Shown: positions 505-35,145 of the stretch, piece after piece
Layout: each line of letters begins with the position of its first letter
Position numbering within the stretch: position 1 is the first letter of the stretch
Assembly: GCA_015490755.1 (NCBI GenBank)
Contig: WFXF01000036.1
Coordinates: 1-35,145 of the forward strand
Origin: Gammaproteobacteria bacterium
GTDB lineage: Bacteria; Pseudomonadota; Gammaproteobacteria; JAADGQ01
Reading direction: 5' to 3'
DNA: 35,145 bases
Position numbers and translations under genes: made by a program
The notes under the pieces: generated by a model
The model's input: the letters and a program-made list of their open reading frames with translations, nothing else
Database searches by the model: none
What the model was told of the DNA's origin: nothing

Positions 505-1455
505 TTAATTTTTATTAACCTTTTGCCAAAAATGAAACAACAATCCTATCACTCCAATTACTGATGTAAAAAACAGCCAATGTAACGTTGGATCATAAAA
601 CACTTTATAGCCCATCCAGCTGGTCATGTATTCATAACGCAATTGACCATCAGGCAGCTGGGCTATTTCTCCCGGTTGCAACTCAATACGTTGATCGTCA
701 CTATTCACGACCAATATACCTGTTGATTTGTTAGCATCCAGTACCCAGTCACTGCTTGCATCAATCCCGGTATCCAGCCGCAACCAGAATTTGATCTCTG
801 GTGCCCCGGGAGGTTGCCAGCGATTTGCCTGCCGGTAATCATAGAGTGGATAGGGCGGCATGTGCACTGTACCTGTGACTTTTTCGCCTTGATCGGGAAT
901 CCAAGTCATGATTGGAGCAAAACCTTTATGAAAACTGGTATAAAAACGGTAACCTTGTATTACTAATGGAACAGCGTCGCCAAATGTCACTGCCTCTCCT
1001 TCACCATCATCCGTCGGCAATATCACCTGATTACGTGTTGGACCGCGCGCAATACCCGGGGAATAGCTGATGGTATAGTCACCCTGAATAAACCGGATAT
1101 TGTCCAGAGCACTCTTGTTATGTAAAGGTCCTTTCCGGATATTAAATAGGTCTGAAGGATCAAAAGCTGTACCATTCAGCATTTCAACGTGTGCATCAAA
1201 GTGAGTCAGCCGACCAATGGCTGCAAGAATCACCACGCCCAGTAAACCGGCATGAAATACCAATAGGCCGTAACGGCGATTAATTCGAGGATTACTGATC
1301 ATGGCGCAAACCAGATTCAGCGCCAAAAGAGCCATGGGAACAACTAATACCCATACGGGCATATCGGCAGGATTGCCATAACTAAGAATTGCACCCCCAC
1401 CAAGAAGCAGCATTCCCACCAATGTCAAGCGGGAAGAGGCCAGCACCTTAATCAT
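505..1455 (-). CDS. resB: ResB/Ccs1-like cytochrome c biogenesis protein
   Basis: A 316-residue membrane protein with two or three N-terminal transmembrane helices (about residues 8-26, 34-52 and 62-82), a large extracytoplasmic domain, and a C-terminal helix near residues 293-310. This is a compact version of the ResB/Ccs1 layout. ResB is the partner of CcsA in System II cytochrome c maturation; together they deliver and ligate haem. The histidine-bearing segment after the third helix (LTHFDAHVEML) is in the expected place. The ATG at 1455 overlaps the stop of the 11-haem cytochrome by 4 bases (ATGA), which implies translational coupling. It is shorter than many ResB proteins, as seen for versions that sit inside multihaem cytochrome clusters. 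I infer that it serves the cytochromes of this locus. Confidence 0.85.
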   Translation of the reverse strand: MIKVLASSRLTLVGMLLLGGGAILSYGNPADMPVWVLVVPMALLALNLVCAMISNPRINRRYGLLVFHAGLLGVVILAAIGRLTHFDAHVEMLNGTAFDPSDLFNIRKGPLHNKSALDNIRFIQGDYTISYSPGIARGPTRNQVILPTDDGEGEAVTFGDAVPLVIQGYRFYTSFHKGFAPIMTWIPDQGEKVTGTVHMPPYPLYDYRQANRWQPPGAPEIKFWLRLDTGIDASSDWVLDANKSTGILVVNSDDQRIELQPGEIAQLPDGQLRYEYMTSWMGYKVFYDPTLHWLFFTSVIGVIGLLFHFWQKVNKN

Positions 1456-4061
1456 GGAATTGCGTTACACCCTTCACTGTTAGGATCAGGTACCTGGTTT
1501 GGACTGCCTTTTTGCCCCGTCATCCAGTTCAATCCTGATTCACCATTACCTGGCCCCCCGACTGAACCACAATTTTCAGGAAGCCATTCGCCACTTCGTG
1601 CGAAATTTTTTACCTTCAATACACTACCATTGTAATAGGGACCCTGGTAATAACGCTTCTCAGTATTATTTCTTACCTGAGTTCCCGCTGGCAATCCTGC
1701 TTCAGGCCCCACATCATTCAAGTTTGCAAGGAATGTTTTATTTTTCCAACCATGTGGCACGGCAACATGACACAATGAACAGCGAAAATTAGTCACTCCC
1801 GTCAACGCTTGTACATGTCCACTATGTAAATTTTTACTTTGAAAAGCAAAGTCGATACATTGGGAGTCAGTAATTGAAGCCGACTGTACCTGAAACCCGC
1901 TCTCACCAGACATTTCACCGTTTGAAAGATCAATAAATTTCCCATAGTCATTATAGTCATGGCACTTAAAACAGAGTGCATTTGGAGTCCCGCCACTTGC
2001 TCCATCGCCTCCGGTTTGATCATTCCAAGCACCTTTCAATATGAAATTATTATTCGAACCATGTGGCCCCCAGGCAAAGCCATTCTCTCCCCCCATCGGT
2101 TCGATAGAGCCCGGCGGTGTATCTGAACCATGGCAATCAGTGCAGTACATAGTCTGGTTGCCAACATTCTGATTAAAAGGAGGCAACCAGTTATCTTTAT
2201 TGGCTTTGCGAACTTCAGGAGTCCTTCCAGTATCTTTAACCACAGGGTGCCATGATCGATGATTATTGTTTGCGTAATCGGAGTGAGCGCCTGTAGGAGT
2301 TAAAGACGTACTTCCGCCCTTATGGTCATCAGGCGACTGGAATTCCATTGCTTGATCAGTGTATTGCTCCATTGCATTCGTACCGGGCGGTGTACCCCCT
2401 CGATAGCGCCCTCCTAACATTGGTGGAGTATCATAAGCATAAGTTGAATGGCATTTAAAACAGAGCTGATATTCACGAGTTAAATGTTCCGATTCAACTG
2501 CTTCACTGGCTCCAACGCCACCATCACCCCGCTTCACATCATAACCTGTTGCCAGCGAACCAAATGCAGTATTACCATATCTTGGCTCCACACCAAATAC
2601 ACCTCGCAATACGCCTGATGCAATATTTGTTGGCGCAATATGTGTGCCCCCCTCATCAGGAATGGCACCATCATCATTAAATTTACGTTTCTTCATAACA
2701 CGGTGTGGATTATGGCAATCTGTACACTCTGCATGACGGTTATTCAAGTCACCATATCCTAACAGTTCACGAGACTCTACAAAGTCTTTACCAAGTTGTG
2801 TTCCATTACCTGTGCCAATTGAATGAACCTCTACACCACCGGGCTGATCAGCGGTCGCAATCGGCATACGACGCAACATCGTTGTAAAATCAGTTTTTAC
2901 ATCAGGCACCTGAAAACCTGCACTCCCTTGCCCTTGCAAAACACCCCCATCTTTTGAATGACACATATAACATGTTTCTTCGATAGCCGGGTTACCACCC
3001 TGTTTGTATTTAGCCCCATTGAGCGCAACTTGCTCTGAACCATCAGTGCCTTCACGCAATATGCGGCGAGAACCTTCAACGGCATGTGGGTCATGGCAGT
3101 TCACACAAGCACCTTGCCACACCGGCATATTTTTCGGAAACTCACGTAACTCAGCGGCTGAATTTTCATACAGTTCATCGGCAACAAGAGGGTTGGCATG
3201 CGCTGAGTTCACCCAACCGGCTTTATTGTGACAACCCAAACAGATAATATCACCACGTTCATTAAAAGTGCCTTCAGTTGGAGGCACTTGTTGAAAACGA
3301 TTCACACGTAAAAACTTGGTACTGACTTCAGAAGCATCATCTGTGACATGCGGATCATGACAGCTGATACACTCCATCTGGTTATCTTCCAATGGTAGCG
3401 TTGGATGAGTTCCTGGAACACGCTCTGCAACCGATGCGCCAGGTTCATTTGGTGTACGTAGCTCACCATCTCGCACACTCAATGCACTGTCATATGTAAA
3501 AGAGATTGGGTGATCATTTGAAAGATCAACTCCGAGCCGCCGAGTATAGCCACTACCTGAGCCTTGCTCCCCACCACCAATCGAACCATCAGATTCGACT
3601 CCACTTAAAGAGATGGTCGTGTTTTCTTTGCGATTTAACACGTTCACTGAACCCACAGCAATCGTGCCATCATGACATGACAGACAAAGTTTTGATTTTC
3701 CTTCAGGCTGGCCTAAATCAGTCGCATCTAAAGAGCTGGAGCTATAAGGTATATAAGAGCTGGTAGATAGTGAACGGTTCCACAGCGGCGCTTTCGGTAT
3801 ATCTGATGCTCCATGTGGAGTATGGCAAAACACACAAACCTGTGATTCGTTCGAAGCCATCATATCCCGATTTTGATTACCAGGCAGTTGAGGAGGCAGT
3901 GATGCTGAAAAATTATGTTTTGTGTTTCTGACATCAGAGACGATTTCAGCATGTGATGAAACGGTAAAAAAAATTAAAATAAATAACAAAATTCCTTTTA
4001 TTGTTATTAAAAAAAAGGGATTAAATTGACCGAAAAATGGCAAGTCATTTTTTCTGTTCAC
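1452..4061 (-). CDS. 11-haem c-type cytochrome
   Basis: An 869-residue exported protein with 11 CXXCH haem-attachment motifs: CVFCH, CLSCH, CISCH, CLGCH, CVNCH, CYMCH, CTDCH, CFKCH, CTDCH, CFKCH and CSLCH. A hydrophobic signal segment covers about residues 14-38 and ends in VSSHAE. About 20 further histidines are available as distal ligands, so bis-His coordination of every haem is possible. The first ~290 residues repeat the module of the tetrahaem protein at 12665-13498: TKHN, CVFCHTPH, PLWNR, CLSCHDG, SNDHP, SCHDPH and FLRV appear in the same order. The start is a GTG at 4061 with only a weak ribosome site; no internal ATG precedes the signal peptide. The protein is probably periplasmic or on the outer surface as the large electron-carrying element of the locus. 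The substrate is unknown. No CXXCK catalytic motif was seen, which argues against a nitrite reductase of the NrfA type. Confidence 0.9.
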   Translation of the reverse strand: MNRKNDLPFFGQFNPFFLITIKGILLFILIFFTVSSHAEIVSDVRNTKHNFSASLPPQLPGNQNRDMMASNESQVCVFCHTPHGASDIPKAPLWNRSLSTSSYIPYSSSSLDATDLGQPEGKSKLCLSCHDGTIAVGSVNVLNRKENTTISLSGVESDGSIGGGEQGSGSGYTRRLGVDLSNDHPISFTYDSALSVRDGELRTPNEPGASVAERVPGTHPTLPLEDNQMECISCHDPHVTDDASEVSTKFLRVNRFQQVPPTEGTFNERGDIICLGCHNKAGWVNSAHANPLVADELYENSAAELREFPKNMPVWQGACVNCHDPHAVEGSRRILREGTDGSEQVALNGAKYKQGGNPAIEETCYMCHSKDGGVLQGQGSAGFQVPDVKTDFTTMLRRMPIATADQPGGVEVHSIGTGNGTQLGKDFVESRELLGYGDLNNRHAECTDCHNPHRVMKKRKFNDDGAIPDEGGTHIAPTNIASGVLRGVFGVEPRYGNTAFGSLATGYDVKRGDGGVGASEAVESEHLTREYQLCFKCHSTYAYDTPPMLGGRYRGGTPPGTNAMEQYTDQAMEFQSPDDHKGGSTSLTPTGAHSDYANNNHRSWHPVVKDTGRTPEVRKANKDNWLPPFNQNVGNQTMYCTDCHGSDTPPGSIEPMGGENGFAWGPHGSNNNFILKGAWNDQTGGDGASGGTPNALCFKCHDYNDYGKFIDLSNGEMSGESGFQVQSASITDSQCIDFAFQSKNLHSGHVQALTGVTNFRCSLCHVAVPHGWKNKTFLANLNDVGPEAGLPAGTQVRNNTEKRYYQGPYYNGSVLKVKNFARSGEWLPENCGSVGGPGNGESGLNWMTGQKGSPNQVPDPNSEGCNAIP

Positions 4062-4096
4062 TGATTTTTACCCAATATTTTAGCTATCCGCTGCTA

Positions 4097-5191
4097 TTAG
4101 TAAGTACTGCTGATCATATCTGACTCCAGATATTGGAAAATAGCAACTCGCCCGTTAAACATGTCTGCGATATAAATTCTGTTTTCTTGATCGATCCAGA
4201 CACCAGCAGGCAAATAAAATTGACCAACACCATGCCCACTACCTCCAATCGGTAATAACAGATCACCCTCCTGATTATAAACCAGCAAGTGATCGTAATA
4301 GGACTCCATTACATAAACATGACCTTTTGTATCGACAGCAACACCTTTTGGGCGAGGAAGATCACCCACATACAGACCGCGTTTACCAATAATTTTAAGT
4401 ACTTCGCCGCTTAGATCAAGCACTTTGATTCGTGAATTGAATGTATCGGTGATATAGAGCTGATCATTGAAAAGAGATAGATAAGTGGGAGTATTGAATG
4501 CGTCAATCGTTTCACCGTGATATCCCCACGTTTCAAGAAGCACACCATCAGCATCCAGCACTTTAATATTATGTTCGCGCACATCGGCCACATAAATTCG
4601 ACCCGTATTAACGTGACGAACCAAACCAACAGGACGCACTACAATCTCATCCGCAAAAACTTCTTGTGGACGACCCTCACGATCCAGACGAACGATCATC
4701 CCAAGCTCGGCATCGGCGACCAGAAAGCCCTCTTGACCATCTTCAACAATTGCAGAAGGGGCAATGAAACGACGATTCTTCTCTGCCATCTCCCATATAT
4801 CCAGCTTGCCATTTTTTTTATCAAAAACATAAATGGCCTGACGACTGACATCAGTCACCAATATTCGCCCATCACTATCAACCAATCCATTTTGAGGTCG
4901 TTGCAGAACTTTGGGCTGATATTTTTTTGAAGTGAGCCCAACCAGCCATTTAAAAGCCTGCGCTACAAAATTTTTCCTATCTTCACTTGTGGACTGAAAA
5001 TTCTCTTCACCGATCAATTCCCCGACATATCGATAACGTGCGACCTCAGGTTCCGTAGGCCAAACTTGTGGTGTGTTCTCATGCGGTTGAATAAAAGATA
5101 AGGTTGCAGGTGCTGTTGCACACCCGGACATAAGCAAAATGACTACAACAAATAAAACAACATAAAAAAGCCTCTTTTCAAGAAGTTTCAT
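4097..5191 (-). CDS. NHL-repeat (beta-propeller) lipoprotein
   Basis: A 364-residue protein with a lipoprotein signal: a hydrophobic N-terminus ends in LLMSGC at about residue 24. The rest is a run of NHL-type repeats, recognised by recurring elements such as GLVDSDGRILVTDVS, GVAVDTKGHVYVMES and GVWIDQENRIYIADM, each about 45 residues apart. This is typical of a six-bladed propeller. Such propellers usually bind proteins or carbohydrates rather than catalyse. The ATG overlaps the stop of the preceding NHL gene by one base (TAATG), so the two are coupled. The gene is followed 35 bases later by the 11-haem cytochrome. I infer an envelope scaffold or docking factor for the cytochromes; the sequence does not give a specific partner. 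Confidence 0.85.
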   Translation of the reverse strand: MKLLEKRLFYVVLFVVVILLMSGCATAPATLSFIQPHENTPQVWPTEPEVARYRYVGELIGEENFQSTSEDRKNFVAQAFKWLVGLTSKKYQPKVLQRPQNGLVDSDGRILVTDVSRQAIYVFDKKNGKLDIWEMAEKNRRFIAPSAIVEDGQEGFLVADAELGMIVRLDREGRPQEVFADEIVVRPVGLVRHVNTGRIYVADVREHNIKVLDADGVLLETWGYHGETIDAFNTPTYLSLFNDQLYITDTFNSRIKVLDLSGEVLKIIGKRGLYVGDLPRPKGVAVDTKGHVYVMESYYDHLLVYNQEGDLLLPIGGSGHGVGQFYLPAGVWIDQENRIYIADMFNGRVAIFQYLESDMISSTY

Positions 5192-6315
5192 TATTCAGAC
5201 AAAGGCTCCAGCAACCCTTCAGGAACAATACGAAGCACTTGAATACGCTTATTTAAGTTATCCGTCACATACAAGAACCCCTCATCCAGCCACATATCAG
5301 TAATCCTGTTAAATCGACCCGGGCCATTACCTGTACCTCCAAATGTAGAAATCAACTCACCTTTTCTATAAATTTTTATTTTGTTATCAAATGAATCACT
5401 GACAAAGGCTTGATTATCCTCATCAATAACAATGGCCGTAGGAAATATCAAAGTATTCTCTTGAAAGGCATAGCGAAAACGACTATCCAGATTAACAACT
5501 TGAGCTCTTGTACCAATGCGAGATGTAACATAAACACCTTCGTTACCTATGGCAAGAGCAGTCACCCCCCTGAATTCACCCTGTTTTTTTCCACGAGCAC
5601 CGATTGCATCAAGAAGGGTCCCTTGGCGATCAAAAACCAGAATATAGTCGTACGAACCATCCGCAATGAGTACAAAACCTCGATGCTCATCAACAGTAAT
5701 GCCGACAGGCCTGGACATATTCAAATAATTTTCAAATACCTGTATTAGTTTTCCTGACTGGCTAAAGTGTAATACACGGCCTGCACTGGAATCAGTGAGA
5801 TAAAAAGAGAGGTCAGGTGCAACATAAATATCAGTAATTTCCTGTTTGATATGCTTAGCTACACCAGATATTAATTGAAGCTGATCCAGATCATTATCAT
5901 AGAGATAAACCCCCTTTTCTGCTTCATCAACAATATAAACATATTTACCTCGTGCAGCAGTTGCAACAGGGTTTTTAAGCTGTTGTCTGGTTAAGCCTGT
6001 TAATCTATTTCCAACAGCTCCACCATCAATAGTCGACCAATTAATCAAAATTGATTCATTCGCTAAAGAAGGGAGCTCTAAACCACCCTCATCATCTAGC
6101 AATAGCTCAGGTGAATCCGCCAGTTTATCAAGTACACCTGAGTGTGAAGGAGGAGCGGGCACAGAGTCAGGTACAGCAGAAATAGCCCATGCAGGTGGAG
6201 GCTTAGGCTCAGACGCACACCCTGCAAAAGCAAGCAGTGTGACGAACAAAGCGCTAAAACGAAACAACCCTTCTATTGTCGTAACAACTTGGTTTTTCGA
6301 GGTTCGGAATGACAT
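5191..6315 (-). CDS. NHL-repeat (beta-propeller) lipoprotein
   Basis: About 374 residues, with a lipobox ending in LLAFAGC near residue 33 followed by a proline-rich linker, then NHL-type repeats (GITVDEHRGFVLIADG, AIVIDEDNQAFVSDS and DMWLDEGFLYVTDN are examples). A TTG at 6324 also opens the frame, but the ATG at 6315 lies behind a GTGGG stretch and gives the more usual N-terminus, so I chose it. It still overlaps the upstream trihaem cytochrome gene by 43 bases, an unusually long overlap within this operon. The protein is a paralogue in architecture of the next gene but the two are clearly divergent. Tandem NHL proteins beside multihaem cytochromes suggest an assembly or anchoring function in the outer envelope; this is inference. 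Confidence 0.82.
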   Translation of the reverse strand: MSFRTSKNQVVTTIEGLFRFSALFVTLLAFAGCASEPKPPPAWAISAVPDSVPAPPSHSGVLDKLADSPELLLDDEGGLELPSLANESILINWSTIDGGAVGNRLTGLTRQQLKNPVATAARGKYVYIVDEAEKGVYLYDNDLDQLQLISGVAKHIKQEITDIYVAPDLSFYLTDSSAGRVLHFSQSGKLIQVFENYLNMSRPVGITVDEHRGFVLIADGSYDYILVFDRQGTLLDAIGARGKKQGEFRGVTALAIGNEGVYVTSRIGTRAQVVNLDSRFRYAFQENTLIFPTAIVIDEDNQAFVSDSFDNKIKIYRKGELISTFGGTGNGPGRFNRITDMWLDEGFLYVTDNLNKRIQVLRIVPEGLLEPLSE

Positions 6316-6896
6316 CGCCCACAATTCATTGTTGGTGGAAAAGCAACTTTACCATGACAAACCCCACAGTACTTCCCTTGCATAATTGCGGACATTGTCA
6401 CAGGATTTGCACCCTTTTCAGGAATAAATATTTTGGGGTGACAATTCGCACAAGTCAGCCACTCTGTATGCTGTTTATGTGGATAGCGCACAACAGGCAT
6501 AGACCCTGTCTTATCAAAAACAATATCAAAATCTACAACCGTCATTTTTTCTTTGCCAGAACCCTCTCTTCCCATGCGTGGATTAATCAGGCCCTTTTCA
6601 ATAGCTTGCACCCAGTCTGTTATTCCAGCAGAGTCACGAGGAAAATCTTTCATCGCTTCGACGGGTGCCTGCAAATTTTTTACAGCACCATTCGAAGCAT
6701 CATGAATACCATCCTTTTCAACGGGAACAATTTCAGCTTCTGTCTGAAAATGTGAACCGCGCTCAGGCAGAACAGGAACCAACTTACTTTTTTCATCTGC
6801 AATAGCAAGTCCACTTCCCATTCCGAAAACAGTAGCACTCACTAAAAGGACACTGGAAACAAGATTTCCAACACACTTTCTAAGGTCATATCTCAT
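6273..6896 (-). CDS. Trihaem c7-type cytochrome
   Basis: A 207-residue exported protein. The N-terminal signal (about residues 10-33) ends in GLAIADE. Three CXXCH motifs lie in the C-terminal third: CANCH, CGVCH and CGRCH, with the conserved distal histidine pair PHKQHTEW just before the first haem. This is the c7/c3-like trihaem fold used by small periplasmic electron shuttles. Residues 60-140 carry an extra conserved region (GIHDASNGAV, then a helical stretch) that is shared with the paralogue at 8578-9243. The two proteins match nearly residue for residue around the haems. It probably passes electrons between inner-membrane donors and the outer-membrane parts of this locus. It follows the cupredoxin lipoprotein gene by 34 bases. 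Confidence 0.87.
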   Translation of the reverse strand: MRYDLRKCVGNLVSSVLLVSATVFGMGSGLAIADEKSKLVPVLPERGSHFQTEAEIVPVEKDGIHDASNGAVKNLQAPVEAMKDFPRDSAGITDWVQAIEKGLINPRMGREGSGKEKMTVVDFDIVFDKTGSMPVVRYPHKQHTEWLTCANCHPKIFIPEKGANPVTMSAIMQGKYCGVCHGKVAFPPTMNCGRCHSEPRKTKLLRQ

Positions 6897-6930
6897 CTAA
6901 AATTTACTCTATTACTCACAGTTTATTAAA

Positions 6931-8409
6931 CTATGAACCTACTCCGATCATTCGTAAAGCACGAATCAAGTTATCTGTTGCTGCCTGCAAAGCAAGTATG
7001 CCATTGCTATAATCACCTTTTTTCCCAAGCTCAATACCCTCCTTTTTTATAGATTTGCTCTTTTTGACAAAGTTATCCATTAATCTCAAGGTACCTGCAG
7101 AAGGTTGTTTTTGATCAATTCCTAATGGAATCAGTTCTTCATAACTTAGGTGACGCGCCAGTTCATACTCATACTCTTCTTTGGGGGTTTCAAAGTTTTT
7201 ATCGTAAACCACTGTTTTGGCGTGAAGTATTTTATTAAGAGAGCCCGCGATTATTTTTTGAGCCTCCTGTAAATCTTTATTTGCTGCCGCATAATCCCCC
7301 GAACTTGCCAACTTTTCAGCCTCTTCAACTAATGCTGAAAACCGACCTTCATCCATTTTATCAGCACTTTTAGCACCTTTCACATGGGTCTTATATGTTT
7401 TTTCATATTTATTCACTTCATCCAAAAGCTCTGCATACCGTGCCTCCTGGTCAATAACAGATTCAGTACTTGGCACCATGCGCGTTGCATCATTCATTGT
7501 ACGTAATGATAAATCGACTTTATCCAGTGCCTCAGAATTTTTACCCGCTTTCAACAAGGTGCGAGATTCGTCCAGATAGTCTTGAGCCTTTTGCATGAGG
7601 CCTTTTGCCTCATCATGGCCGCTTGCAGCAATGCGCTGTGCGGACTTTGATGAATCACTCAACATCATGTTTGCAAAGTTAATTTTCTGTTTAACCTGAT
7701 TGGAAGAAACAGATCTTTTTACAGGTTTACCGACAATAGGGCTTTTACGTTTTGACAAAGCATCAATGTCAATTCTTTCACCTTTATCAACTACGTAAAT
7801 CTTGCCGCCCATATACTTATGGTTAACACATTGATAATAAAGTACGTCAGGCGTTTTTTCATTGGGAGTCAAACTCACTTTTCCTATATAAGTAAACTGC
7901 CCTGTTACACCCTCTTTTTCTGTAATCGCGCCTGCACCCCATCCTTTTGGATTAGTCGTCAAATAAAAGTCGTGAGTCACCCCTGTATCAATATCAAAGG
8001 TGTAATTTTGACCCCGCTCAACAACAAAGTCTTTTCCAGGAACACCATTCACAGTGAATCCTATATCAGTCCCCTGTTGATATTTTGGATGACTGGAATC
8101 TTTTTTGACTGAGCGAACAATGAATGTATTTTTATCTGCAGGCAGCACTACTTCTTTTGCTTTTACATCCTCTACGACCAAGCCACCACTCTCTTCTTTC
8201 ACCGCATCGTTAAGTGGAATTACAACAGCTTCTTCAATTTTCTTTTCAGCTTGAGGTTGTACTGATTTAACAACATCAACCGCTTGTTCTTTTAAATCAC
8301 TACCCATTTCAGGCAGTACTTCTTCGGACTTTTTAATACCAGAGCCACACGCGGCCACGCTAAAAGTCATTGCTACCAAGACGCTCTTTTGCAACAGTTT
8401 TTTATTCAT
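6931..8409 (-). CDS. Lipoprotein with cupredoxin domain and helical C-terminal domain
   Basis: A 492-residue lipoprotein; the signal ends in SVAAC with the lipid-bearing Cys at residue 21. Residues ~30-90 form a charged, low-complexity tether. Residues ~94-208 are a cupredoxin-like beta domain with a complete type 1 copper ligand set: His146 (GVTHDFY), then Cys194, His197 and Met200 in YYQCVNHKYMGG. Residues ~240-490 are alpha-helical and charged, resembling TPR-like or coiled helical hairpins (SEALDKVDLSLRT, GDYAAANKDLQEAQ, GDYSNGILALQAA). The ribosome site GGAGG precedes the ATG well. A one-electron blue copper carrier fused to a helical scaffold, between cytochrome genes, suggests an electron-transfer bridge tethered to a membrane. 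I do not know a named family with this domain order, and the helical part has no function I can assign. Confidence 0.8.
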   Translation of the reverse strand: MNKKLLQKSVLVAMTFSVAACGSGIKKSEEVLPEMGSDLKEQAVDVVKSVQPQAEKKIEEAVVIPLNDAVKEESGGLVVEDVKAKEVVLPADKNTFIVRSVKKDSSHPKYQQGTDIGFTVNGVPGKDFVVERGQNYTFDIDTGVTHDFYLTTNPKGWGAGAITEKEGVTGQFTYIGKVSLTPNEKTPDVLYYQCVNHKYMGGKIYVVDKGERIDIDALSKRKSPIVGKPVKRSVSSNQVKQKINFANMMLSDSSKSAQRIAASGHDEAKGLMQKAQDYLDESRTLLKAGKNSEALDKVDLSLRTMNDATRMVPSTESVIDQEARYAELLDEVNKYEKTYKTHVKGAKSADKMDEGRFSALVEEAEKLASSGDYAAANKDLQEAQKIIAGSLNKILHAKTVVYDKNFETPKEEYEYELARHLSYEELIPLGIDQKQPSAGTLRLMDNFVKKSKSIKKEGIELGKKGDYSNGILALQAATDNLIRALRMIGVGS

Positions 8410-8481
8410 TATTTTCTGCCTCCAAGTTAGTCAGACATAGCTCGCTACAACTCTCCATGCTTAACTATCCGTATAATTTTA

Positions 8482-8510
8482 AAAATATTGATTTACTTTA
8501 TTTATATCAA
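8482..8510 (-). promoter_or_regulatory. Candidate sigma70 promoter for the cupredoxin lipoprotein gene
   Basis: On the minus strand, TTGATA (8510-8505) and TATTTT (8487-8482) are separated by 17 bases, about 70 bases upstream of the ATG at 8409. The same stretch is bounded by an inverted TTGAT...ATCAA pair (8488-8510). It lies in a 168-base gap that separates the two trihaem genes upstream from the rest of the locus, so it may give the downstream genes a separate start. The prediction rests on consensus matching only. Confidence 0.35.
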
Positions 8511-8577
8511 CACACGGGTTAAGCCAAAAAATATGACCTAACCCATATCTTCTATTTAAAACCAAACTCTTAAAAAA

Positions 8578-9243
8578 TCATTTCCAGGGATTTTTAAGTG
8601 ATGCCTGACTCATGGGTGGTTCCCAATCAGCAGGTTTTGGTTTTGAATGGCATAAACCACATGATTTTGTGGTCACTGGAAAAGATACTTTGCCATGACA
8701 TACACCACAATCCTTACCTAGCAAAATCGAAGACATATTAAATTGGTTTGCATTTTGCTGTGGAATGAAAATTGTTGGATGACAATTCGCGCAAGCCAGC
8801 CACTCAGTATGCTGACGATGAGGAAAAATAACATCAGGCACTGAAGATTTGACTTCACGCACAATATCCATATCCATTACAAACGCTTCTTCTGCAGGGT
8901 TGATTCGATCCCAACGAGGGTTAATCTTCCCTTCTTCCAAAGTTTTCACCCAATCCACATAATTGCCAAACTTGCTTGTTACAAAACCACTAAAAGCTTC
9001 TTTAGGCGGCTGCAGAACATGCGTACTATCATTTGCAGGATCATGAATGCCATCTTCTGATGGAGCAGCATTAATATTAGTCTCTTTTTTAAGGTTACGG
9101 TTAAAAGTGTTAACCGCACTTACAGAAGCGACGTTTATTGTGTCAGACTGGGCAATGACTGCATCTTCTGCTTGCACTGCACTCAATGGAGCAACCGCAA
9201 CTAAAGCGAAAGCTAGAGAAATCGATTTTGTTTTAAAATTCAT
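8578..9243 (-). CDS. Trihaem c7-type cytochrome
   Basis: About 221 residues from the ATG at 9243, chosen because AGGAG lies 7 bases before it and the protein then begins with a clean signal peptide (MNFKTKSISLAFALVAVAP...VQA). Upstream in-frame codons add only a charged leader. Three haem motifs, CANCH, CGVCH and CGLCH, follow the distal-ligand segment PHRQHTEW. The protein is a close paralogue of the one at 6273-6896: PHxQHTEWLxCANCHP, IFIP, GKxCGVCHGKV and the middle GIHD region are shared. A duplication inside the locus is the simple explanation. The role is probably a periplasmic electron shuttle. Its stop is followed by a 168-base gap before the cupredoxin gene. Confidence 0.87.
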   Translation of the reverse strand: MNFKTKSISLAFALVAVAPLSAVQAEDAVIAQSDTINVASVSAVNTFNRNLKKETNINAAPSEDGIHDPANDSTHVLQPPKEAFSGFVTSKFGNYVDWVKTLEEGKINPRWDRINPAEEAFVMDMDIVREVKSSVPDVIFPHRQHTEWLACANCHPTIFIPQQNANQFNMSSILLGKDCGVCHGKVSFPVTTKSCGLCHSKPKPADWEPPMSQASLKNPWK

Positions 9244-9253
9244 AACCCTCTCC

Positions 9254-9682
9254 TTATTTGCTTTCCAGCGATTTATACGCAGGAGCAACTAAACGTTGCA
9301 CTGTGCTACCATGAAAATGCGTTGGTGTACCAGGGTTACCTGAATGACACATATTACAGTTTTCTACAGACCACGCGACTTCGCCATTGTGGCAAGCTCC
9401 ACAGAACTGACCATCAATAATTTTTGCCATCGTAATTTTGTTACCGCCCGCTTTAAATTCAAAACCCAAATCGGCATGACATACTTTGCAACGAAAACGA
9501 ATGCGATGAAACCAGTGTGGAAAAACAGCAGGACGCATACCCGCTGCGTCAGAATAGTTATTTATAACCACATCGCCATATTCTGCATGAACATTCTGAG
9601 AACCTAACATCAGAACTAATCCAGCCAATATCCCGACACAAGCAAATTTATTTATAAATTTGCGCAAGGGATTGAGTATCAT
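9254..9682 (-). CDS. Small trihaem c7-type cytochrome
   Basis: About 142 residues from the ATG at 9682; an excellent ribosome site (GAGGAGGT, 5 bases away) decides this start over a codon seven residues upstream. The signal peptide ends in QNVHAEYGD. Three motifs, CKVCH, CGACH and CNMCH, follow the distal segment FPHWFHRIRF. It shares the FPHxxH...CxxCH...GxxCGxCH...CxxCHS spacing with the two larger trihaem proteins but lacks their N-terminal extension. It is thus a minimal c7-type domain. It is followed after 10 bases by the larger paralogue, so both are likely made together. It is probably a soluble periplasmic carrier. Confidence 0.87.
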   Translation of the reverse strand: MILNPLRKFINKFACVGILAGLVLMLGSQNVHAEYGDVVINNYSDAAGMRPAVFPHWFHRIRFRCKVCHADLGFEFKAGGNKITMAKIIDGQFCGACHNGEVAWSVENCNMCHSGNPGTPTHFHGSTVQRLVAPAYKSLESK

Positions 9683-9781
9683 TGAACACCTCCTCGTCAA
9701 CAAAATAAAAAGTAATTATTAAAAAACACACTTACCCTTTTACAAACAGGTTACCAAATATTCCTTGTTGTATAAAAGCTG

Positions 9782-9819
9782 TCAGATTATGAAAAAATAG
9801 AAGTATCCCCATAATCTGA
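9782..9819. repeat. 10-bp perfect inverted repeat in the gap between the beta-barrel and trihaem genes
   Basis: TCAGATTATG (9782-9791) and CATAATCTGA (9810-9819) are exact reverse complements with an 18-base loop. They lie in the 212-base gap between the beta-barrel stop and the small trihaem gene. No T-run follows on the minus strand, so a classical terminator is unlikely. An operator or an RNA-processing hairpin is possible. The rest of the gap is AT-rich without other clear signals. Confidence 0.4.
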
Positions 9820-9894
9820 GAGCCTTTCAGAACACTCACTGCTCCCTGCCATAAAAGATTTTTTCAACCAAGTGGGTTAAAAATACCTTCCTGG

Positions 9895-11661
9895 TTAAAA
9901 TCGTCGAGTTACCCGAACCAGCATTAAATTGCTACGATCACCTTCACGATCAATGATTCGATAACTTAAACTGCAATCAAGCAAACCGATACTGTAGTCC
10001 AGGCGATTATCCCACTCTGAACGATCCACACCATTGCTTAATGACACCTTTGAAATATTCAGATCAGAACGAAACCCTAGATTGGTCACTCCAAAAATGC
10101 GTTGGTGATAATAACCGATTTGGCCTGATGTTGTCTCTATATTCTCCAAATCGCCATAACGTGTACGCTGTGCCGTCATACTCGCATTCAACTCACTTCG
10201 GCGATTTAGAGGAAGCACTCCTGACAATTGAAAGTTAAATAACTGTTGTGCATTATCTTGATCATCAATATCACGTCGATCCTCTATGAACAGTCGCGCA
10301 TAAGCTGAAATCCATTTTACCGACTTGTTCCAACCGAAGCTTGCTGAATGGTCAATTTTTGTGACTGTGTCACTTTGATCACCAGACAGCTTGTTTTGAT
10401 TAACTGCTTGACTTAAATTCAGATTAAGGCGAGACGACAGAGGTGCAATCCATACTCTTTCCATATTATGTCCAATACGCCCCAAAACACTATTTTTTAC
10501 TTCATCAACCTCATCAGAACGTTGTATTGAACCTGAAGCATACCACTGATAAGTAACATCATAAAAAGGCTCATATAGATCTGATTGATATAACCCACCC
10601 ATACGTAGATTATTAAAATCTTTTTGAGTCTGGCCATCATCATTGGTGCCAACACTTGCGCCAACATCACCTCTGAAGTTTTTAGTAAACTGATAAATTG
10701 CGCCTCCACGAACAGTTGTTGAAAAAACGCCACCCGCATTATCAGTTATATCCGTATCAATATCCGCAATCCTCACACCACCATTCACGGTGAGCAAGCG
10801 ACTGTTTGATCGCCATAATGCAAAGCTGGACATCTGTATGGTATTCACTGTTGTATCATCAAATTCAACCAATGTTGGCTGCTGCAACGAAGTATCCACA
10901 TTGGACAGGCTAAACATCGAATCAATCGTCAACGACTCTGTAGGTCTCCAGAAATGATCGACATCAAGCAAACGATTTTCCGTCTTTCTTTTTTCTGTTG
11001 TTGCAAAACTTGTCGACTGACTGTTAAGTGTTGTCGTTAAAGTCTGGTTTGGAAAGCGTAATCTCGCTTCCAACCCCACATTTTGATCGTCATAACGGTC
11101 GCTATCTGAAGTCCATCGCCCCTTACTGAAACGTCCTTGAAAGCGGTGATTTTCAGCCGTAACCCATGATTGACGAAGATCAAGGCGGTTTGTTTTATAG
11201 TTTTGCCCTGAATCAACCAGCAAATTATTGTCACTTTGAGTATCGACACGACTATCACTTGCGTGAAAAACCAGTGAAAAAGGTGCTCGACTCCGAGGCA
11301 GAACATTCAAGTTAAACTCACCCGTTATAATTTTTGCATCCTTGCCTTGCTGCCCAATACTATAATCATAATCACTGCTATCAAGTGTTACACTCAATCG
11401 CCCACCCGCAGTAGCAAACCAGGGTTGCCACAAATAGGATGAACCTTTTATTGAGCCTTCCAACTGATTACTAATCACTTTATCACCATCTGTTTGAGCA
11501 TGAGAACGGTAATTGTAACCAACACTTCCTGACAAATTCAAAGCAGCGGCTCCTATGGCCAGACTACCCCATAAAATAGTGAACAATAAAACAGACAACA
11601 GGGCGATACCACTCAATAATGGCTTAAGCGCCTTTCTGCTCACTATTGAATTTATCGCCAT
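9895..11661 (-). CDS. Outer-membrane beta-barrel protein of the cytochrome locus
   Basis: A 588-residue protein with a signal segment (about residues 16-40, ending near GAAALNLSG) and then alternating short polar/hydrophobic strands throughout. It ends in VRVTRRF, a terminal phenylalanine typical of barrels inserted by BamA. Repeated aromatic-girdle strands such as VGYNYRS, VTYQWYASGS and LDYSIGLLDCSLSY support a large barrel of perhaps 20 or more strands. There is no CXXCH. Its size and position among cytochrome genes resemble the porins of porin-cytochrome conduits, but I see no MtrB-type CXXC near the N-terminus and do not assign it to that family. The gene starts 8 bases after the prolyl isomerase stop, without a strong ribosome site, so coupling is likely. 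Confidence 0.8.
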   Translation of the reverse strand: MAINSIVSRKALKPLLSGIALLSVLLFTILWGSLAIGAAALNLSGSVGYNYRSHAQTDGDKVISNQLEGSIKGSSYLWQPWFATAGGRLSVTLDSSDYDYSIGQQGKDAKIITGEFNLNVLPRSRAPFSLVFHASDSRVDTQSDNNLLVDSGQNYKTNRLDLRQSWVTAENHRFQGRFSKGRWTSDSDRYDDQNVGLEARLRFPNQTLTTTLNSQSTSFATTEKRKTENRLLDVDHFWRPTESLTIDSMFSLSNVDTSLQQPTLVEFDDTTVNTIQMSSFALWRSNSRLLTVNGGVRIADIDTDITDNAGGVFSTTVRGGAIYQFTKNFRGDVGASVGTNDDGQTQKDFNNLRMGGLYQSDLYEPFYDVTYQWYASGSIQRSDEVDEVKNSVLGRIGHNMERVWIAPLSSRLNLNLSQAVNQNKLSGDQSDTVTKIDHSASFGWNKSVKWISAYARLFIEDRRDIDDQDNAQQLFNFQLSGVLPLNRRSELNASMTAQRTRYGDLENIETTSGQIGYYHQRIFGVTNLGFRSDLNISKVSLSNGVDRSEWDNRLDYSIGLLDCSLSYRIIDREGDRSNLMLVRVTRRF

Positions 11662-11669
11662 ACAGTTAT

Positions 11670-12659
11670 TTATTCGATGCTAGCCAAAACCGACTTATTC
11701 GTTGTTATTGGTGTCGTATTACGCAATTTATTAATAAACTTGCTGAGCGCAAGCTCGCGATTTTCTCGTAACCATAAATCGCTTGCCCGCTCTTTAACGT
11801 CCACAAATTTATTTAACCTGGATGAACGTTTATCAAGCAATTTCATAATAGCCACCCCTTGTAATAAAACCACAGGTTTAGAGACATCACCACGAGCCAT
11901 TCCATCCAATACGCTCTGTGCTTGTGGTGCCAACATCCCTTTATGTATATATCCCAAATCCCCTCCATTAGCCGCTGACTCATGCTTAGAGTAGCGGCGA
12001 GCCAGATCTGAAAAATCAGCACCGCCCTTAATTTTAGAAACCAGGCTTTCGGCTTTTGAAAATTCGGACTCCCATACCTCACCTTTTGATGAAGGCGCCA
12101 CCTTTAACAAAATCAATGAAATATGAAACTGCTCCGGTGTTGTAAATTTATCTGTATTTTGCTTGTAATAACTCAGAATCTCCTCTTCCTTTACTGCAAC
12201 ACCATCCTTAATTTTCAAGCTCATCTGATCAATCAGACTCTTTTCTTTAAGTTCTTGAGCGACTGACTTTAACCATACATCGCTCGTTGATTGCCAACCC
12301 CTGGCATTAATGCGTCTCTTCCATTGCTGGACTTCGCTACTGACCCAGCGCTCATCTGGTTTCAGACCACGTTTGATCGACTCTTGAAGCAACAACCTTT
12401 TATCAACCATATCGGCTAATACTTCCTGACGTAGAGCTATTTTTTTTTCTGCGGAAGCCGAGCCATGATAAAATTTACGACGAAGCTCCGCATGAAAAGC
12501 GGCTTTAAACTGCAACACTGTGATTTTCTCATCACCCACTGTTGCAACTATTGATGCATCATTGATAATAGTATCAGCCGCAATATCACTGACATTTAAA
12601 AAAAACATCATAAAAAAACCTACAATAGGTATAACTGTTTTTTTTAAACTTAGCATCAT
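11670..12659 (-). CDS. Parvulin-type (PpiC/SurA-like) peptidyl-prolyl isomerase
   Basis: A 329-residue exported foldase. The N-terminal hydrophobic segment (about residues 9-27) is followed by a SurA-like helical chaperone region (VATVGDEKITVLQFKAAF, then EVLADMVDKRLLLQE). A parvulin domain lies at about residues 175-275; characteristic elements are FHISLILLKV, KIKGGADFSDLARRYS and AANGGDLGYIHKGML. Such proteins isomerise prolyl bonds and escort barrels or secreted proteins through the periplasm. It lies between the tetrahaem cytochrome (5 bases upstream) and the beta-barrel (8 bases downstream). I infer a dedicated chaperone for one or both. Prolyl isomerases of this type also accompany multihaem cytochrome genes in Geobacter-like bacteria, as far as I recall. 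Confidence 0.88.
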   Translation of the reverse strand: MMLSLKKTVIPIVGFFMMFFLNVSDIAADTIINDASIVATVGDEKITVLQFKAAFHAELRRKFYHGSASAEKKIALRQEVLADMVDKRLLLQESIKRGLKPDERWVSSEVQQWKRRINARGWQSTSDVWLKSVAQELKEKSLIDQMSLKIKDGVAVKEEEILSYYKQNTDKFTTPEQFHISLILLKVAPSSKGEVWESEFSKAESLVSKIKGGADFSDLARRYSKHESAANGGDLGYIHKGMLAPQAQSVLDGMARGDVSKPVVLLQGVAIMKLLDKRSSRLNKFVDVKERASDLWLRENRELALSKFINKLRNTTPITTNKSVLASIE

Positions 12660-12664
12660 GAGTA

Positions 12665-13498
12665 TTATTTAGTGTGACAAGCCAGACAAACAGTGCTTCC
12701 AGAAGGCGTAACACGCAAAAAAGTAGGGTTTTCATCGACATGAGGATCATGACAAGAAGCGCATTCAACATACGGCTGAGGTTCACCTAACCATCTACCA
12801 CGAGTGCCCACACGTGTATAGAGCTTCATATCCGTTCTTTCATACCCACTCGTCCCACCTTCCGTTGCGGTATTCACCCACCAGACACGTGTCGTCCCGT
12901 TTATTTCAGTAACAGGGGGCTTAAAATCTCTATCAACCCCTGGGCCTTGAGGATTTGCATTAGAGTAGCCACCTCCAGCATATTGAACACCCACCGGATG
13001 ATCATTGGTTAAATCTTTGCCAAGGTTCGTTATAACATCAACTGGAATCGTACCATCGGTATTTGCAACCAACCCACTCCACGACCCAGCAGAATAGGCC
13101 GGCACATCCAGACCGGAGCCTGGTTCATTGATGACAGAATCCATGGCTTGCGAACCATCATGGCAAGACAAACATGCCAAAGAGACCGATCCAATTGCCT
13201 CTACACCACCATCAAGTGTCGTAGTTCCCGTTTGATCATACGTCGCAAAAGCACCCGAGTTCGTTAAATTGCGATTCCAAAGAGGCACTGCAGCTTCGCG
13301 ATTAGCCGCATGGGGTGTATGACAAAACACACAAACTTCTGCTGTGCCACTAAAGTTGCTGGTTCCACCAATGCCGGTACTACCTAAGTTATGCTTGGTA
13401 TTTGCAATACCCGCACTACTCAAATGACTTGAAACAAGCAATATTCCAAACAACAAAAAGGAAGCTCTTTGTGGCTTAATAATTTGATCTATCCGCAA
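12665..13498 (-). CDS. Tetrahaem c-type cytochrome, possible filament-forming (OmcE-like) type
   Basis: A 277-residue protein and the first gene of the locus. The start is a TTG at 13498 with AAGGTG 7 bases upstream; no ATG fits before the signal peptide (about residues 12-32, LLFGILLVSSHLSSAGIA). Four haem motifs are present: CVFCH (56-60), CLSCH, CASCH and CLACH. After the signal peptide there are exactly four other histidines: TKHN, CHTPH, NDHP and CHDPH. That is one distal ligand per haem. The spacing TKHN-CVFCHTPH-PLWNR-CLSCHDG-NDHPV-CHDPH-FLR-CLACH is also found at the start of the 11-haem protein. The tetrahaem layout resembles the extracellular OmcE type of Geobacter; that assignment is inference from memory, not from alignment. 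The chain ends three residues after the last CXXC (HTK), so nothing extends beyond the final haem. Confidence 0.85.
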   Translation of the reverse strand: MRIDQIIKPQRASFLLFGILLVSSHLSSAGIANTKHNLGSTGIGGTSNFSGTAEVCVFCHTPHAANREAAVPLWNRNLTNSGAFATYDQTGTTTLDGGVEAIGSVSLACLSCHDGSQAMDSVINEPGSGLDVPAYSAGSWSGLVANTDGTIPVDVITNLGKDLTNDHPVGVQYAGGGYSNANPQGPGVDRDFKPPVTEINGTTRVWWVNTATEGGTSGYERTDMKLYTRVGTRGRWLGEPQPYVECASCHDPHVDENPTFLRVTPSGSTVCLACHTK

Positions 13499-18789: not shown

Positions 18790-18953
18790 TAAGGAACGTG
18801 CACGGAATAACTTCTGCAACTATGGCGTAGAAATTTTGCTTCGGCTCAAACGATCTCAAGAGGCGCATAGCTGGCCTATGTAACGATTGAGATCGTTTGA
18901 GCTGGAGTAAAATGGCAAGCCAGAGTGCAGAAGTTATTTCGTGAACGTTCCTA
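18790..18953. repeat. 164-bp palindromic element (MITE-like), copy 1
   Basis: The element starts TAAGGAACGTGCACGGAATA and ends with its near complement (about 24 of 26 terminal bases pair). An inner perfect 16-bp pair, GCTCAAACGATCTCAA (18844-18859) and its complement (18887-18902), encloses a 27-bp core (18860-18886) containing the small hairpin CATAG-N5-CTATG. There is no ORF. Copy 2 at 34981-35144 has the same length, ends and core. The size and terminal inverted repeats suggest a non-autonomous mobile element or a structured intergenic repeat. A flanking duplication is not clear (TA on the left, AA or A on the right). It fills most of the 329-base gap 18695-19023; the rest holds nothing I can identify. 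Confidence 0.75.
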
Positions 18954-19023
18954 AGCTGTTTAGATTGGGCACATTGTATCAAATCACGGAGAAATGAGAC
19001 CTTATTATTTTATGAACGTTCAT

Positions 19024-33672: not shown

Positions 33673-34840
33673 TCAGCGTGGTAGCTCGGTACCTTCGTTC
33701 ATAATCTGAATGTATTCCACGTAGGAATAAAGACGGTTCCGCTTCTGACCGGTCACCTCTTTGACAATGCCAAGCTGCTCCAATTCACGCAGGCACGCGT
33801 TGACGGTTGCCGGTGAGAGCTGGGTCTTTTCTTGAATCCAGTTTGGCGAGGCCATCGGTCGCTCCAGCATCGCTTTATGAATCAGATGTGCAGAGCCGGA
33901 AATGCGTTTGAGACCATTGATACATTGACCATCATCTGCCGACAGCTTCACTAACTGCTGAGCGGTATCCACCGCCTGCGTTGCTGAGTGAGTGACAGCA
34001 TCGGCAAAGAAGTGCAGCCATGCCTCCCAATCACCGGTCAGGCGTACTTCATTCAGCAGCTCATAGTACCGCTGGCGGTGAGTCTTAAAATATAAACTCA
34101 GGTACAGCATCGGTTCTTTTAGCACCTTCTCGGAGCAGAGCAGCAAGGCGATGATCAGACGGCCCAGACGTCCGTTACCGTCGAGGAATGGGTGGATGGT
34201 TTCAAACTGAACATGGGCCAATGCCGCTTTGATAAGAACAGATGTCTTTTCCGGTTGATCGTGTAAAAACAGCTCAAGTTTTCCCATACATTCTTGCACA
34301 TATTCCGGTGGCGGAGGTACGAAAGCTGCTGTACCGGGGCGACTGCCACCAATCCAGTTCTGACTTCTGCGAAATTCACCCGGATTACATTCCTTGCCGC
34401 GCCCTTTCGACAGCAGGACACTGTGAATCTCTTTCAGCAATCGAAGCGAAAGCGGAAAACCTTCATTCAAACGGTTCAGTCCGTGATTCAGCGCTGCCAC
34501 ATAATTGCTGACCTCCTGCACATCATCCAGTGGCACTCCCGGCTGGTGTTCAAATTCGAACAACAGCAGGTCGGAAAGGGAGGACTGGGTACCCTCAATC
34601 ATCGATGAAAGCACCGCCTCTTTGCGCACATACATGTAAAGGAAGAGCGAGGTGTCTGGGAGCAATACCGAAACACTGTCCAAACGACCTAGAGCCAGCA
34701 GAGCCTGATCAAACTTTTCCCAAAGTTCCAGATGACCATTCAATAGGGGGTGTTGGCGGCAACGGAGCCGGAACAAAGGCTTGCACCTTTTCCCCGACAG
34801 TTGAAATGGTAATGTAATGGCCTTGTAGCTCCCTGTTCAT
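33673..34840 (-). CDS. Fic-family AMP-transferase-like protein, with apparent N-terminal frameshift
   Basis: The main frame (34776-33673) encodes a Fic domain with the active-site motif HPFLDGNGRLGR, the class II inhibitory helix motif SSMIEG before it, and a C-terminal winged-helix region (SPNWIQEKTQLSPATVNACL). Fic proteins usually transfer AMP to target hydroxyls. The expected N-terminus (MNRELQGHYITISTVGEK, then FVPAPLPPTPPIEW) lies in another frame, starting at the ATG at 34840. The two join if one base is dropped near 34729-34737. The cause may be a true frameshift mutation, a sequencing error at a site close to a run of five Gs, or start at the internal ATG at 34776. The catalytic core is intact either way. 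Solo Fic proteins with this layout often act on themselves or on gyrase-type targets; no target can be read here. Confidence 0.85.
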
Positions 34841-34980: not shown

Positions 34981-35144
34981 TAGGAGGCTGTCCGAGAATG
35001 GAAGTCGTAGCGAGGGAAAGCCATTTTGAGGCAGATTTGGTGTAAATTTGAGGCGAATAGTTGTTCTATTTAACGAAAATTTACACCAAATATGGCCGAA
35101 ATGGATTTTCCGCAGTAGACTTTTCATTCTTGGACAGGCTCCTA
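34981..35144. repeat. 164-bp palindromic element (MITE-like), copy 2
   Basis: The element begins TAGGAGGCTGTCCGAGAATG and ends with its near complement (GGACAGGCTCCTA). The inner arm ATTTGGTGTAAATTT (35035-35049) pairs perfectly with 35077-35091. Between them lies a 27-bp core (35050-35076) that matches copy 1 at 22 of 27 positions, including GAGGCG, ATAG, CTAT and TAACGA. The length is identical to copy 1. The arms have a different sequence from copy 1 but are again complementary. No ORF. It lies upstream of the fic gene at the window edge. Confidence 0.75.
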
Positions 35145-35145
35145 G

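Follow-up and report, generated by a model that had tools for sequence, protein, structure and literature searches.

Bacterial MITEs are usually viewed as shrunken transposons whose interior is unimportant. Two palindromes in a gammaproteobacterial genome (GenBank assembly GCA_015490755.1) raise the question of whether the fold of such an interior can itself be kept, as the initial annotation had held in calling these elements unusual for plain MITEs. The window analysed here, 35,145 nucleotides, is the whole of contig C36 (WFXF01000036.1), whose end falls just past the second palindrome; it stops there because contig ends often fall inside such elements.

Boundaries and parts of the two elements

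The palindromes were found at 18790-18953 and 34981-35144, where the initial annotation had placed them, but they are not both 164 bp long as it had stated, the flanking target bases having been counted in. Element 1 (family B; palindromic, non-autonomous, with ISAzo13-type ends) occupies 18793..18951 on the + strand (159 bp), and element 2 (family A; palindromic, non-autonomous, with IS1182-type ends that match those of the IS1182-family transposon L212) occupies 34983..35142, also on the + strand (160 bp). The ends, previously described as similar and TAGGA-like, resemble each other only superficially, with GGAACGTKCACG.AATAACTT (ISAzo13 type) in element 1 and GGAGNCTGTCCGAGAAT (IS1182 type) in element 2.

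Element 1 starts with the terminal inverted repeat GGAACGTGCACGGAATAACTTCTGCA (18793..18818, + strand), which is of the same type as the ISAzo13-family ends of L290, and closes with the corresponding right repeat (18926..18951, - strand); on both sides the target duplication TAA is read directly (18790..18792 and 18952..18954, unstranded). Element 2 is flanked on the left by the target site TA (34981..34982, unstranded; CTAG-type, here TTA followed by GGAG) and on the right by TAG (35143..35145, unstranded).

The 27-nt cores, both on the + strand, read GAGGCG-C-ATAG-CTGGC-CTAT-G-TAACGA in element 1 (18860..18886) and GAGGCG-A-ATAG-TTGTT-CTAT-T-TAACGA in element 2 (35050..35076). They share 22 of the 27 bases, and a C-G pair adjoining the tip stem in the former corresponds to an A-T pair in the latter, both as first described. 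The core of element 1 is matched by the other copies in the genome and contains invariant positions of an alignment of diverse copies (A1, see below), in which the core of element 2 is likewise conserved. The pairing of the arms, which had been thought perfect, is interrupted by conserved unpaired segments: GAGGCG/TAACGA in both elements and, in element 2, two asymmetric loops on the + strand, namely TCGTAGCGAGG/CGCAGTAGA (35005..35015, near-invariant in A1, and 35111..35119, conserved in A1) and GAGGC/GGCC (35028..35032 and 35094..35097, both conserved).

Mobility, target sites and candidate partner transposons

Both elements are non-coding, repeated and inserted relative to a sister species (G001), and they carry the ends of known transposon families. 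They are about 160 bp long and belong to groups of high copy number, their terminal inverted repeats are shared with L212 and L290, both in other genomes, family B has a target duplication, and the joined flanks were continuous in G001 at six sites, including that of element 1. At the L010 site, G001 has a single TAA, and TAA stands on both sides of L010 here. At the element 1 site, G001 shows small indels and lacks an intact TAA; this site therefore demonstrates the absence of the element and not the duplication. By structure, that is, copy number, shared repeats, duplication and empty sites, these are MITEs, and what set them apart in the first description comes down to an extra, conserved and structured core.

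Among the family-A copies, 69 of 119 are flanked by CTA on the left and TAG on the right, where a 2-bp TA and a 4-bp CTAG duplication are indistinguishable; beyond these bases, complementarity between the flanks is at chance level. The flank variants CCA and TGG co-occur five times where about one case is expected; such coupling would fit palindrome correction or repair of CTAGG to CCAGG. In family B, which in this genome comprises element 1 and about 20 more full or partial copies, 19 of the 32 elements examined had a perfect 3-bp direct repeat, in most cases TTA or TAA.

Candidate partners were found in other genomes. An intact 1.57-kb transposon (L212, in genome G092) has family-A ends, CTAGCAGTCCGTCGGACTTAGG / CTAGGAGCCTGTCGGACTTAA, and a transposase of the IS1182 family (NF033551, 334 bits; cut-off 270), and decayed IS1182 copies with family-A ends are present in two further genomes (G357 and G352); the IS1182 link is based on ends of about 20 bp from these three genomes. 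For family B, a 1.33-kb transposon with the ends GGAACGAGCACGAAATAACTT and TTA/TTA flanks (L290 and L291, in G249) encodes a transposase of the ISAzo13 family (NF033519, 479 bits). Four full-length ISAzo13 matches are found in G249, and ISAzo13 remnants lie at most 150 bp from a family-B end in G180 and about 1 kb from one in G198.

Family A thus has in common with the IS1182-family insertion sequences the ends of about 20 bp and the CTAG-type site, and family B has in common with the ISAzo13 family (PF07592, NF033519) the GGAACG..CACG.AATAACTT ends and the TTA/TAA duplication of L290 and L291. Only the outer 20 to 27 bp or so are shared between the autonomous transposons and the elements; family-A elements differ from IS1182/IS1272 in that they lack coding sequence and their interior is structured, and the interior of family B is unrelated to the transposase gene and bears the family-A core. 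At 160 bp both are too short for a transposase frame and are non-autonomous partners of these families rather than members proper. The interior does not derive from the autonomous transposons, and a single core is carried by two unrelated transposon types. Family-B ends are also found on other palindromic interiors (L292, L299, L300 and L301), so the interior is a replaceable part. The tip of L301, CAGGCATGTAG-CCACC-CTACATAACTG, appears to be distantly related to the core (AGGC...TAG / CTA...AAC).

Mobilisation in trans by transposases of the IS1182 and ISAzo13 families would account for both families. The partners are inferred from other genomes because neither was recognised in this one: only weak, sub-threshold IS1182 matches and no ISAzo13 transposase match were obtained here, and IS1182-type end matches on contigs C18, C32, C28 and C82 yielded no autonomous transposon. 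The partner in this genome may have been lost, be missing from the assembly, or have escaped recognition. A stretch of about 140 bp upstream of serS occurs on two contigs (the end of G000:C32 and G000:C38:10442-10579); in C32 it is joined to a family-A end, perhaps through chimeric assembly.

Folding of one strand and the explanations for it

Template switching can maintain the symmetry of a palindrome and so inflate covariation. The fold was assessed in alignment A1, which holds 30 diverse sequences from both families and has 21 invariant positions, all except one within the core. RNAalifold predicted 55 pairs, of which 48 had changed on both sides, with a covariation of 0.662 compared to 0.207 when shuffled and at most 0.189 (about 0.19) when slid; 92.4% of the pair counts were paired (67.2% shuffled), and double-change cells numbered 387 (119 shuffled), although the copies share ancestry and these changes are not independent events. 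Covariation was strong between families and between species. In the tip, a single pair varies (A-U in 23, C-G in 6); the remaining tip pairs are invariant and thus uninformative on covariation by themselves.

Furthermore, in 74 of 76 representatives (37 of 39 at 62% identity) the predicted fold of the GAGGCG...TAACGA strand was stabler than that of its complement; the difference averaged 16 kcal/mol and fell to about 4 after mismatched pairs were randomly complemented. Isolated mismatches in the inner stem of 45 diverged representatives were G.T rather than A.C (46 versus 5) and G.A rather than C.T (53 versus 5), with less bias in the outer stem (19 to 9). Given this strand preference and mismatch bias, selection appears to act on a single strand, RNA or single-stranded DNA, which the mismatches do not separate because G.T and G.A favour both. 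The proposal that the folding itself is kept is upheld by these data, and selection on the fold of one strand is strongly supported; covariation and strand preference together are as expected of a structured single-strand element. A search of the window and seven loci against Rfam 15 gave nothing that reached the gathering threshold, only sub-threshold matches to hairpin-like miRNA and rox1 families. Two or three levels of a single hairpin seem to bear the AGGC/AACG loop motif in L079 and L098, for instance CAAGGC/TAACGC and GAGGC/CAACGC in L079.

Separate evidence exists for the mobility, for the match of the end families and for selection on the fold of the GAGGCG...TAACGA strand, and we consider it probable that both elements are MITEs, non-autonomous DDE transposons moved in trans, that have a long hairpin as interior, a shared tip, a stem whose fold is kept, and a single-strand core. 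An IS1182-family transposase supplied in trans would recognise the terminal inverted repeats of the element 2 family and insert it at CTAG-type sites, and an ISAzo13-family transposase, also in trans, would recognise the ends of the element 1 family with a 3-bp TTA/TAA duplication. The interior is a long imperfect hairpin and not a shrunken transposase gene, with the 27-nt tip common to both families and the stem preserved by compensatory change. The folded strand may be a transcript, which is slightly favoured, or DNA that becomes single-stranded in the course of replication or transposition. A protein might bind the conserved G.A-rich loops, to the element's benefit and regardless of the transposase that moves it. 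More tentatively, and at less than even probability, the core could be a self-standing folded module, most likely RNA, that has been combined with the ends of two or more unrelated families of DDE transposons and has spread in the Gammaproteobacteria and beyond; its one-strand fold would be required for the propagation of the elements, and the module would be selfish and independent of whichever transposase moves it.

It is possible, if doubtful, that the folded strand is single-stranded DNA, i.e., a hairpin of the lagging strand or of a transposition intermediate recognised by a host or transposon protein, comparable to HUH-transposase and integron systems. The + strand is favoured with DNA energies too (70/76), the elements have no orientation bias to genes, and element 1 lacks a promoter-like site, but the normal 3-bp target duplications of family B are typical of DDE transposition of double-stranded DNA. 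IS1272 is counted among the IS1182 family and has been reported to act on stem-loops, targeting and replacing them (PMC5678879). For family A, replacement of this type was not seen and was rejected, as the flanks have no inverted complementarity above chance beyond CTA/TAG.

The elements could also be ordinary MITEs whose arms are kept palindromic by template switching, that is, quasi-palindrome correction, around a passive core without function, which we regard as improbable. Arm conversion does occur in this genome: the right arm of L154 is copied from the left, the reverse is the case in L160 and L164, and L003 (G000:C2:58093-61119; core 1501-1527) is a chimera of sub-families, in which a left inner arm from the GTGGATC sub-family is joined to a TTGTT sub-family core and the right arm repeats the usual left arm in reverse complement. 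These symmetric derivatives are best read as the known quasi-palindrome correction, and they are the few instances of the suggested rewriting of the arms during copying; they are rare, and rewriting leaves the conserved asymmetric loops unexplained. Near identity of copies within a family and the core-less deletion derivatives L174, L224 and L226 would also suit a passive core. The latter, like L223 and L229, are derivatives of about 60 bp with both ends and no interior, as expected from deletion in long palindromes. In contrast, asymmetric loops would be lost through correction, which works on both strands, but they are invariant between distant genomes while the stems change, nor can correction yield the observed G.T excess over A.C or the 16 kcal/mol difference between strands. 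As a full explanation, quasi-palindrome correction is thus contradicted by the strand bias and the conserved loops. A family-A element of about 270 bp (L214, G250:C4:33600-34300) has small repeats inserted in the tip and the right arm.

Distribution, gene context and relation to known elements

A search of the genome for the core with up to 2 mismatches gave 58 copies in 2.63 Mb and none of the reversed pattern, a recurrence far above chance. Two main sub-families (A...T and C...G) make up most of these copies, with smaller variants besides, and copies within one family are nearly identical, as in ordinary MITEs. Among 369 sampled genomes of the class, 30 had the core, with 1 to 57 copies each, and exact copies were present in at least 113 further GTDB stretches, chiefly from Gammaproteobacteria. 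Nitrosomonas, Desulfobulbaceae, Bacteroidetes and others are also represented, several of these records being metagenome bins in which the outermost taxonomic assignments may be contamination. The core is present on two viral contigs; element 1 had no match in the plasmid collection and a family-A element none in the phage collection, the single partial plasmid match being Pseudomonas pMPC6-328K. In the complete 3.4-Mb genome G357 (G357:C1), about 188 family-A end matches point to about 94 elements, whose core has diverged (GAGGACAATAG...CTATTCGACGA); this genome, complete and with many elements, is a good experimental system.

The elements are mostly intergenic (86, versus 4 in long open reading frames) and close to gene ends, with 25 sites between convergent genes and 10 between divergent genes. 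They are oriented with the neighbouring gene in 24 cases and against it in 27, without bias; element 1 has neither a terminator-like nor an internal promoter-like site, and no gene family recurred next to the elements in 115 loci, only spurious frames within the elements. Given the balanced orientation and the lack of such sites, a cis-acting host function is unlikely, and a function in the element's own life cycle fits better. A regulatory RNA or terminator that serves the host and was spread by transposition would suit the intergenic and convergent positions near gene ends, but is very improbable in view of the unbiased orientation, the lack of a terminator-like site in element 1, the unconserved neighbours and the patchy occurrence across species.

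Integron attC sites have the outer boxes RYYYAAC...GTTRRRY and lie in gene cassettes. Here the ends are GGAG.CTGTCSG or GGAACG, the size is wrong and no cassette array was seen, so the elements were not assigned to this class. GTAG-tagged REPs with RAYT transposases (PMC3733652) are likewise imperfect palindromes with conserved unpaired bases, but REPs have 20 to 40 bp, a GTAG foot and a Y1 transposase, whereas the elements here have about 160 bp, terminal repeats and a target duplication. Immediately inside a family-B end there is a RAYT-like gene (L220, G000:C69:7700-8300; by eye, PDHLHCIWHLP motif), accompanied by a different palindrome of its own, GTAGGTCGGGTTAGCGCAGCGTAACCCGACA. Palindromic MITEs described from one or a few related genera, i.e., QMITE2 of Coxiella, YPAL/RU-2 of Yersinia, NEMIS/Correia of Neisseria and RPE of Rickettsia (PMC5896051, PMC2229807, PMC10969869), are alike in size (100 to 190 bp), long hairpin, high copy number and mostly intergenic position. 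The available portions of these reports make no mention of a core under two types of ends or of strand-specific covariation; it is by these descriptions that they are set apart, and kinship is possible. No description of the core was found in the openly accessible literature. New in these MITEs is a one-strand fold that is conserved under two different types of transposon end, the core being retained while nearly every stem pair has changed in a compensated manner, with the signature confined to one strand. If confirmed, this would show selection for a single-strand fold in a selfish element, and would be a clear example in which to ask what the fold binds. A widespread structured element missing from Rfam, and one that breaks up short-read assemblies, would also be added.

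Elsewhere in the window, a gene for a Fic/DOC family protein (33673-34776, - strand) adjoins element 2. A cluster at 1452-13498 (- strand), possibly involved in extracellular electron transfer, encodes CXXCH proteins, of which one is large and multihaem (MtrC/MtrF-like domain, Paired_CXXCH) and others are smaller, as well as proteins with NHL-like repeats and one resembling PpiC (by eye).
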